Source: an uncultured Clostridia bacterium
Lineage (GTDB): Bacteria; Bacillota; Clostridia; Christensenellales; UBA1242
Direction of reading: 5' to 3'
Assembly: GCA_944377165.1 (NCBI GenBank)
Contig: CALWEJ010000006.1
Coordinates: forward strand, 1-64,000
Length of the DNA stretch: 64,000 bases
Below, piece by piece: positions 55,878 to 60,024 of this stretch. The position numbers and the translations under genes were made by a program. Below the pieces are notes generated by a model. It saw nothing but the letters and a program-made list of their open reading frames with translations, did no database searches and had not been told where the DNA came from. Each line of letters opens with the position of its first letter. Position 1 is the first letter of the stretch.

Positions 55878-56147
55878 AAATTTTTTACGCAAAATATAAT
55901 CAAAAATATAATAAATAATTATTATATATTAATCAAAAAAATTGCTTAAAAATTAAGAAAAAATTAATCAAAAAATTAACTAAAAAATTAAGTTAAAAAC
56001 TATCAAAAATGCCTATAAAATAGTATAAAACGCGCATTGCACGCACTATTATTTTTTTATTTAAATTTAATTTTTTTGGTAGTGATTTTTTTATTATAGT
56101 TTGTGGAAAAGTGGATAACTTTTTATTTTACAATATATAGTGGTATT

Positions 56148-56156
56148 TTCGACAAA
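56148..56156 (-). promoter_or_regulatory. Putative Spo0A box at oriC, right
   Basis: TTTGTCGAA on the minus strand (TTCGACAAA on plus), an exact 0A-box match, lies inside the DnaA-box cluster between the boxes at 56110-56118 and 56180-56188. Confidence 0.62.
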
Positions 56157-56275
56157 ATTCGTGCAAATTCACACAATTTTTATACACATTTTATGTTGAT
56201 AACTTTGTTGAAAATTGTGTTGATAACTATATCTAACTTGTGGAAAACTTAAAAAATTTAATTTTCACGTTAGGA

Positions 56276-57757: not shown

Positions 57758-58840
57758 TTAGTTATTTACAATCTTTCCATTTTTAATATTAATGACATTA
57801 TAATTAAAGTCCAATTTAGGAATTTGTGTGCAAGTTATTATAGTTTGATACTTGTTTGTCATATTTAGAAGTCTAAACTGTCTATTTTCATCAAGCTCGC
57901 TAAGAACATCATCTAATAAAAGTATAGGATATTCATTTATCTCGTTTTTAATAATTTCCATTAATGACAATTTAACTACAAGAGCAACAGTACGTTGTTG
58001 CCCTTGACTAGCATAAAATTTACAATCTAAATCATTAATATAAAATATCAAGTCATCTCTATGCGGACCGATAGTTGTATAACCGAGCTCAATCTCTTTA
58101 TCAACTGATTTATCAAAAAGAGATGTCAAATCATCGTGTATAGTTATATTTTCTTTTTTCTTATAACTATACGAAATTGATAAATTTTCACTAGAAGTAA
58201 TAAATTTATGAATATTTGGGGCTATTTTATTTAATTTTTCAATAAAATTTAATCTTTTTTCAATAATTTTTTCTGCAGTATCAATTAGTTGGGGAGTAAA
58301 TAACTTTAATTGCTCTTTTTTTGATTCTAGCGAATCTGAAGATTTTAGTATAGCATTACGTTGTTTTAGAATCTTTTCATATTTAAGTAAATTATATAAA
58401 TAGTTTTTGTCAAATTGACTAATTGAGATATCTAAAAACTTTCTTCTATCTTCAGGAACTTCTTTTATAAGTTTAAGTTCATCAGGACTAAAGTAAACTA
58501 TAGATAGTGTACCAACCAATTCAGTTAACTTCAAAATATTTAATTCATTTATTTTAATTGACTTTTTGTTAGATTTATCTAAATACATTTTAATATTCTT
58601 TTTACCGACACGTGTATCAAAGTTAATATTAATCAACGATTTTTCTTTACTAAAATTTATCATTTGTTTTTCTTTGCTATTTTTAGGGCTTTTACCAACA
58701 CTGATTAAATATATGCTTTCTAACATATTTGTTTTGCCTTGAGCATTAGCGCCAACTATAAAATTAAGACCATCATTAAAACTGATTGTCTCATTGTCAT
58801 AATTTCTAAAGTTAGTTAAAGTTAGGTTAGTTATTTTCAT
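57758..58840 (-). CDS. recF: DNA replication and repair protein RecF
   Basis: RecF is an SMC-like ATPase that helps load RecA at gapped DNA. The 360 residues contain Walker A (GANAQGKTNMLESI, about 30-43), the ABC-type signature ASQGQQRTVALVVKLSLME (about 278-296) and Walker B LLLDDVLSELD (about 312-322). The ATG has no ribosome site but lies 7 nt after a perfect TATAAT box, so translation is probably leaderless. Its orientation is convergent to dnaA and, if the origin is at 56 kb, against the direction of the rightward fork. Confidence 0.96.
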   Translation of the reverse strand: MKITNLTLTNFRNYDNETISFNDGLNFIVGANAQGKTNMLESIYLISVGKSPKNSKEKQMINFSKEKSLININFDTRVGKKNIKMYLDKSNKKSIKINELNILKLTELVGTLSIVYFSPDELKLIKEVPEDRRKFLDISISQFDKNYLYNLLKYEKILKQRNAILKSSDSLESKKEQLKLFTPQLIDTAEKIIEKRLNFIEKLNKIAPNIHKFITSSENLSISYSYKKKENITIHDDLTSLFDKSVDKEIELGYTTIGPHRDDLIFYINDLDCKFYASQGQQRTVALVVKLSLMEIIKNEINEYPILLLDDVLSELDENRQFRLLNMTNKYQTIITCTQIPKLDFNYNVINIKNGKIVNN

Positions 58841-58847
58841 TTCAAAT

Positions 58848-58876
58848 ATTATAATAAAATTTTAAAAATTTGTCAA
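58848..58876 (-). promoter_or_regulatory. Perfect-consensus leaderless promoter of recF
   Basis: TTGACA (58871-58876), 17-nt spacer, TATAAT (58848-58853). There are 7 nt to the ATG. Confidence 0.9.
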
Positions 58877-59343
58877 ATTTATAATAAAATTATTAATTTT
58901 TATTGTTAAATTAAACTAATTATAAAAATTTAATAAAAAATAGAATATTAAAATTTTAATTTTATCATTAATTATTTTATTATTTTTAATAATATGTTTT
59001 GCATTATTATTAAATAATAAACAATAATAATAAATAATTATTTAATTTAAATTATATATTTTATTTTCTCGCGCGCGCGTGCGCGCGTACACGCGTACGC
59101 GTATATATAAGGATAAGAGATATAATTTAACATTTAATATTATTTATTTTATAATTGATTCTATAATAAAAAAAATAATATAATAAAAATTAAATTTAAA
59201 TAATTAATGTGATAAAATTAAATTAAAAGAATAATTTAATAAAAAATAATTAAAAATTATAAAATTTTTAATCAATTATAAATAAAAAATTATTAATTAA
59301 TAAAATAACTAATAATTTTTTTATTTTTTATTTAAATTGAATT
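58877..59343. other. AT-only gap between rsmG and recF with a GC-alternating tract
   Basis: This gap is nearly pure A/T with no gene. It is interrupted by the 40-bp alternating pyrimidine-purine tract at 59070-59109. I find no DnaA boxes here. Confidence 0.6.
59070..59109. repeat. 40-bp perfect alternating pyrimidine-purine tract (Z-DNA candidate)
   Basis: From C59070 to A59109 every pyrimidine is followed by a purine, mostly CG steps, then TA/CA/TG steps, ending in TATATATA. It contains the 12-bp palindrome ACGCGTACGCGT. It is the only GC-rich patch in about 500 bp of A/T DNA. Confidence 0.9.
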
Positions 59344-60024
59344 TTAATTTAATGGATTTGTTTTAGGTTTATTTTGTGAACGTGGATAAATTAATGGAGT
59401 ATTCTTTACCTTTTTAATAATTATTATATTTCTTTCACCTATATCGTTAGGTAATTTGAATTTCAAACTATCTATATATTCTCCGCCTAAAACAGATATT
59501 GCATTTTTTGCTTCGATTAGTTCTGAGTCTGCATTAGTTGCTTTATATGCTAATACATATCCGCCAACTTTTACTAAAGGAAGAAGGTATTCTAAAAGTG
59601 TGTTTAATTTAGCAACCGCTCTAGCAACTGCAACATCGAAATATTCACGATTATTTTTAGCAAAATCTTCTGCTCTAGAATGTTCACAACTATAATTAAG
59701 ATTAAGTTTATTTTTTAAGTTTTGTAAAAATGTTATTCTTTTATTTAAACTATCAACAAGTGTAAGTTCAATGTCATTGCGGACAATTTTTATCGGAAGA
59801 CCCGGGAAGCCTGCACCTGTTCCTACATCAACCAATTTTGCATTTGCTGGGATATAATCTATAGGTAAAATACTATCTAGAAAATGTTTAGTGTAAACAT
59901 CATTTTTTTCGACAATGGCTGTTAAATTGACCTTTTCATTGTATGAAATAAGATTTTGATAATATATATCAAATAATTTTTGATTTTTAAATATTAATTG
60001 TTCACATTTATCGATAATATTCAT
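59344..60024 (-). CDS. rsmG: 16S rRNA (guanine527-N7)-methyltransferase
   Basis: RsmG methylates G527 of 16S rRNA using S-adenosylmethionine. The 226 residues show the RsmG N-terminal helix region (YNEKVNLTAIVEKNDVYTKHFLDSI), the SAM site LVDVGTGAGFPGLPIKI (about 64-80) and DVAVARAVAKLNTLLEYLLPLVKVGG. It follows mnmG by 60 bp on the same strand. No ribosome site is visible. The AT-rich non-coding gap begins just after its stop codon. Confidence 0.95.
   Translation of the reverse strand: MNIIDKCEQLIFKNQKLFDIYYQNLISYNEKVNLTAIVEKNDVYTKHFLDSILPIDYIPANAKLVDVGTGAGFPGLPIKIVRNDIELTLVDSLNKRITFLQNLKNKLNLNYSCEHSRAEDFAKNNREYFDVAVARAVAKLNTLLEYLLPLVKVGGYVLAYKATNADSELIEAKNAISVLGGEYIDSLKFKLPNDIGERNIIIIKKVKNTPLIYPRSQNKPKTNPLN

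Follow-up and report, generated by a model that had tools for sequence, protein, structure and literature searches.

Z-DNA requires strict alternation of pyrimidines and purines. Peck and Wang reportedly showed in 1985 (a reference listed in PMC4770202) that negative supercoiling turns an alternating CG tract into a block to transcription, and to our knowledge it is still an open question whether Z-DNA plays a natural regulatory role in bacteria. Surveys of alternating tracts in prokaryotes have dealt with genome-wide frequencies and have mostly described suppression (PMC4060949, PMC2728739). The activation of gyrase promoters by relaxation has been described as unexplained: the discriminator model fails to account for relaxation-activated gyrA–gyrB promoters, and competing structural transitions nearby are one option (PMC8422995). 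An open-access literature search found nothing on Z-prone tracts at gyrB. Here we describe a natural alternating tract upstream of recF in a 64-kb stretch of DNA (hereafter the window) from a member of the Christensenellales, and compare it with similar tracts at recF in its genus and at gyrB and other genes in its order.

A 40-bp alternating tract upstream of recF

Positions 59070–59109 of the window read CGCGCGCGCGTGCGCGCGTACACGCGTACGCGTATATATA, 40 bp of unbroken pyrimidine–purine (Y–R) alternation as the initial annotation had noted, with 12 CG, 2 CA/TG and 6 TA steps, a GC content of 65% and no strand assigned. The tract lies in the recF–rsmG intergenic region (58841–59343, unstranded), which is 503 bp long and, by base count, very AT-rich: outside the tract, 25 of 463 bases are G or C (5.4%). 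The flanks had been described as about 500 bp of A/T-only DNA; the size holds, the strict absence of G and C does not. The longest palindrome in the tract is the 12-bp ACGCGTACGCGT at 59091–59102, which had also been recognized. On the TA side, the tract is bordered by TATATATAAGGATAAG (59102–59117, + strand), and a similar, TATATA(T)AA[GT]GATA-like border adjoins the CG tract in most relatives.

The tract had been called exceptional, and it is. The second-longest Y–R run in the window is 14 bp, and a pattern search of the 1.02-Mb assembly found no other run of at least 24 bp; the whole-genome run statistics are pattern searches that miss interrupted tracts. At the window's alternation rate of 0.497 per step, runs of at least 40 bp are expected about 5 × 10^-8 times per 64 kb and 8 × 10^-7 times per genome, which rules out a chance origin. 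Assembly error is an unlikely source, because similar but non-identical tracts are found at this position in relatives that were assembled separately (metagenome bins from several projects). Nor is this a simple dinucleotide microsatellite, the steps being mixed (CG, TG, CA and TA). With no intrinsic terminator at the tract and no Rfam match, a terminator or a known RNA family is ruled out as its identity. The exact tract sequence is absent from IMG/VR, which says little on viral origin.

The origin region

The genes near the tract are dnaN, dnaA, recF, rsmG and mnmG. GC skew is negative on the left and positive on the right, turning between approximately 55 and 65 kb of the window, and it turns at the same genes in the relative G033. 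Six near-consensus DnaA boxes found by box search cluster between dnaN and dnaA (56102–56247, unstranded) and mark the likely oriC; the proposed proximity to the origin is thereby borne out. Because these boxes lie 2.9 kb from the tract and none occurs in its own intergenic region (58841–59343), the tract is part of the origin region, with oriC proper elsewhere. Over the whole window, 51 near-consensus boxes are dispersed, against 18 expected from shuffles. A search for parS (TGTTTCACGTGAAACA-like 16-mers) returned only three matches in the window, each with three mismatches and none within 2 kb of the tract. A parS centromere and a DnaA-box element are thus both ruled out by the absence of matches in the intergenic region, so that the suggested role as a site for segregation proteins is not supported.

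Gene call and recF search place recF at 57758–58840 (− strand), and within the genus it is constantly the gene downstream of the tract. A promoter scan identified TTGACA-17-TATAAT (58848–58876, − strand; 12 of 12 matches) near the recF ATG; the tract lies about 190 bp upstream of it, and most members of the genus share the GTCAA of this −35 box. The end of the −10 box and the ATG are 7 bases apart, which suggests a leaderless or near-leaderless recF mRNA. On the other side of the tract is rsmG (gidB; 59344–60024, − strand). Between 54668 and 58840, dnaA (+) is opposite in strand to both dnaN and recF (−), and gyrB is found on another contig (G000:C7), unlike the usual dnaA–dnaN–recF–gyrB order.

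Calculated energetics of Z-DNA formation

Z onset was obtained from a two-state calculation for a 5-kb domain with published dinucleotide B–Z energies (PMC3024258), considering single-phase Z runs and ignoring competing melting of AT-rich flanks. With melting ignored, the window tract has a calculated onset at a superhelix density σ of about −0.037, compared with −0.045 for the next-best site, and ranks as the most readily converted site of the window. The tracts of relatives and those at gyrB give values of −0.036 to −0.045. The window tract thus combines the long strict alternation, rich in CG/CA steps, of Z-DNA-forming sequences with a calculated onset within physiological superhelix density. 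Of the two transitions originally predicted, a propensity to flip to Z-DNA is supported by this calculation, whereas cruciform extrusion would be weak, because the longest palindrome is only 12 bp.

Tracts at recF across the genus

We located recF in 30 of 34 genomes of the genus. Eight of the 30 (G000, G012, G018, G002, G033, G029, G016 and G003) carry a CG-rich, strictly alternating tract of 25–57 bp upstream of recF. These tracts vary in letters, in length and in distance to recF (approximately 50–370 bp), whereas alternation is constant. The far-side neighbour also varies, being rsmG in some genomes and other genes in G033, G029 and G003. Tract presence needs four changes on the recF tree, which means repeated gain or loss, and the tract is dispensable at recF because 22 of the 30 genomes lack it (in a few, the upstream region is shortened by a contig end).

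Searching all 34 genomes with one pattern returned 13 strict tracts, nine of them within approximately 3 kb of dnaA: eight upstream of recF and one between dnaA and dnaN. Within the genus, the tracts are therefore not scattered without positional preference, the pattern that the initial annotation had named as counting against it. Of the other four, one precedes the S10 ribosomal operon, one precedes a 23S rRNA gene and two are at the starts of other genes. A 30-bp alternating tract in G029:C6 (L071 1054–1083) is located about 530 bp upstream of the 23S rRNA gene. Second, shorter tracts occur between dnaA and dnaN in G029 and G002; in the dnaN–dnaA region of the window, ACGCGCATTGCACGCAC (56030–56046, unstranded) is a broken Y–R stretch of 8 + 9 bp, at a place where G005, G029 and G002 have intact tracts of 18–25 bp. 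The gyrB leaders of the genus contain no long tract.

Tracts in the order Christensenellales

A wider search used a 28-bp alternating pattern with a central CG. It matched 51 of 396 genomes of the order, the window's own included (50 of 395 without it), 8 of 391 in a class sample, again including the window's own (7 of 372 with the order left out), and 11 of 398 in a phylum sample that also includes it. Long alternating tracts thus form a recurrent class enriched in Christensenellales. The element is not universal there, since the majority of genomes in the order lack long tracts. In 200-kb chunks from two members of the order, no clear general excess of 16–20-bp runs was seen; the excess is confined to a few long tracts.

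Matches inside the order are mostly intergenic and directly upstream of genes. The gene most often concerned is gyrB; others are pheS, mnmA, a cysK-like gene, several genes of lipoprotein-like products and the S10 operon. Gene names beyond the dnaN, dnaA, recF, rsmG and mnmG set of the window were read from protein sequence, and gene starts are mechanical calls. The matches inspected outside the order all come from the phylum sample. Their locations are diverse; several fall within open reading frames of GC-rich genomes or overlap these, and none is at gyrB. Among 67 distinct tracts of the order, 54 had an assignable start; a promoter with at least 10 of 12 matches was found on the gene side in 12 cases, four of which are gyrB of a single genus (g81) and so not independent, and on the other side in 1. 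This order-wide class at gene starts and gyrB was not foreseen in the initial annotation.

Several further features of these tracts were seen. Tracts near the S10 operon in two families (L072 2973–2992 and L153 2008–2042) resemble recF tracts in their border, which is TATATAAGGA-like or TATATAATAGGA-like. In L195, L202, L208 and L115, the tract reads as an open frame and yields spurious N-terminal extensions (MRTHTRAYAH-like) in the mechanical calls. Paired alternating tracts lie close together in other members of the order (L198 1463–1530 and L203 1470–1528).

Conservation of alternation at gyrB

Of the 51 genomes of the order with a tract, at least 14 have one at gyrB. Among 78 gyrB leaders taken without selection, 16 contain a CG-containing run of at least 16 bp, against 0.5 expected, and most of these 16 begin within approximately 18 bases after a −10-like box. 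The gyrB tracts are spread over families f6 (g81 and other genera), f17, f10, f25 and f3. In two f3 species, the tract is the exact 17-bp spacer between TTGCCA or TTGCTA and TATAAT (read by eye). In all 11 sampled species of g81 (family f6), it directly follows a strongly conserved gyrB promoter ending in TATAATATTATAAT. This promoter, TGATATAATAATTTTATTATAATATTATAAT, has tandem −10 boxes, with 31 of 34 columns invariant over the 11 species (L216–L226, L233 and L339).

The tract itself is conserved in another manner. Of the 19 tract columns aligned for g81 gyrB, 12 are variable, but the exchange is always C/T or A/G: over the 11 species, we counted 276 transition pairs and 0 transversion pairs in the tract, compared with 227 and 788, respectively, in the 36 columns upstream of the promoter. 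The comparison of letters thus shows that alternation, rather than base sequence, is conserved in these tracts. Since all sampled g81 genomes carry the tract, this conservation does not come from a choice of genomes that have it. Some of the g81 changes could stem from slippage by two bases at a time, but this too would preserve alternation.

Alternative explanations

One alternative is an element acting at the RNA level: transcribed Y–R RNA, self-complementary in many registers, could fold into a 5′ hairpin with a protective or regulatory effect on the mRNA, with alternation as a by-product. Many tracts do sit in 5′ leaders, every g81 gyrB leader tract that was folded reaches −12 kcal/mol or lower on the mRNA strand, and TG steps exceed CA steps on that strand (138 versus 57), permitting G–U pairs. 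However, a hairpin requires inverted repeats rather than alternation, and folding is no more stable than that of Y–R-preserving shuffles (mean z of 0.04 and −0.17). In addition, two gyrB tracts occupy the untranscribed −35/−10 spacer, and the one at recF precedes the promoter of that gene. We regard this explanation as unlikely; selection for an especially stable RNA hairpin is not supported.

A purely mutational origin, in which dinucleotide slippage yields functionless mixed CG/CA/TA repeats at promoters, is in our view distinctly improbable. Two-base units would preserve alternation, tract length differs between species (25–57 bp), and TRF detects a weak 8-bp period inside the tract, the only one found (85% match). 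Against this, the steps are mixed and without long periodicity, and the window tract stays at 65% GC within DNA of 5% GC. At gyrB and recF, tracts hold the same position in different species and families, and transversions are absent from the g81 tracts while frequent in their flanks. Moreover, Z-promoting patterns are generally suppressed in prokaryotes (PMC4060949). Finally, an origin site recognized through its sequence or shape by a nucleoid, segregation or replication protein would fit the position and the recurrent TATATAAGGATA-like border but is very unlikely, as the letters vary between species, similar tracts at gyrB, pheS, mnmA and S10 are distant from any site in common, and the recF–rsmG region has no parS-like or DnaA-box match.

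Proposed function of the tracts

The reading that we put forward is that the tract is a supercoil-responsive DNA element, in which the selected property would be the strict Y–R alternation that enables a flip to Z-DNA; we consider the case for it evenly balanced. A broader proposal, which we advance more tentatively, is that Christensenellales might use Z-DNA switches in core promoters, mainly that of gyrB, as supercoiling sensors, the origin-linked recF tract included. Under negative supercoiling, the alternating tract would flip to the left-handed form. The placement is clearest at gyrB, where the tracts occupy the core promoter, either as the −35/−10 spacer or from the −10 box to about +40. 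On an over-supercoiled chromosome, the flipped tract would block RNA polymerase and less gyrase would be made; on a relaxed chromosome, the tract would return to B-form and gyrB would be transcribed. The gyrB tract is thus plausibly a feedback switch for gyrase. We infer both the formation of Z-DNA in the cell and the direction of the regulation.

The window tract is not itself a gyr core-promoter element, as it adjoins recF and gyrB is on another contig. By analogy with the gyrB copies, we infer the same mode of action for the recF copy: because it lies upstream of the TTGACA-17-TATAAT promoter, in the negatively supercoiled wake of transcription, it may be a supercoil sink or tuner. Its flip would absorb the negative supercoils that transcription of recF and the firing of replication leave behind, and might tune recF or neighbouring promoters. 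Several points stand against a Z-DNA switch. The genus of the window has no long gyrB tract, the window's recF tract is some way from the recF promoter, and 22 of the 30 recF-bearing genomes lack one there; the excess of TG over CA steps on the mRNA strand is not predicted by Z-DNA alone; and the very AT-rich flanks could melt first, absorbing the same supercoils.

If a Z-DNA switch does operate, bacteria would possess a cis-regulatory code written in Y–R alternation and not in base sequence. The tract present at the gyrB core promoter throughout g81, with alternation kept and letters free, offers a concrete, testable answer to how gyrase promoters may be activated by relaxation, and likewise to the role of Z-DNA in bacteria. 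The recF tract would show the same element also marking the replication origin region in relatives with reduced genomes.

Comparison with known systems

The engineered (CG)n and (CA)n inserts placed in plasmids (Peck and Wang 1985; PMC3024258) resemble the present tracts in Y–R alternation, in length and in calculated B–Z onset. They block transcription in a supercoil-dependent manner, as proposed here for the gyrB tracts. Those inserts are artificial; the tracts described here occur naturally, reappear at the same genes and stay alternating as the sequence changes.

The relaxation-stimulated gyrA and gyrB promoters of Escherichia coli and mycobacteria share with the gyrB tracts the same gene and the same core-promoter region, and there too supercoiling is assumed to be sensed by an element intrinsic to the DNA, as we propose here. 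They differ in the element implicated, which is the −10 region in E. coli and distal or overlapping promoters in mycobacteria (PMC4770202); the gyr-promoter literature surveyed reports no Z-prone tract in either. In eukaryotes, Z-prone sequences near transcription start sites (PMC3024258) likewise concentrate Z potential beside the start. That concentration is a statistical excess over many genes, whereas the tracts of Christensenellales are long, perfect and found at few genes, with their alternation conserved column by column.
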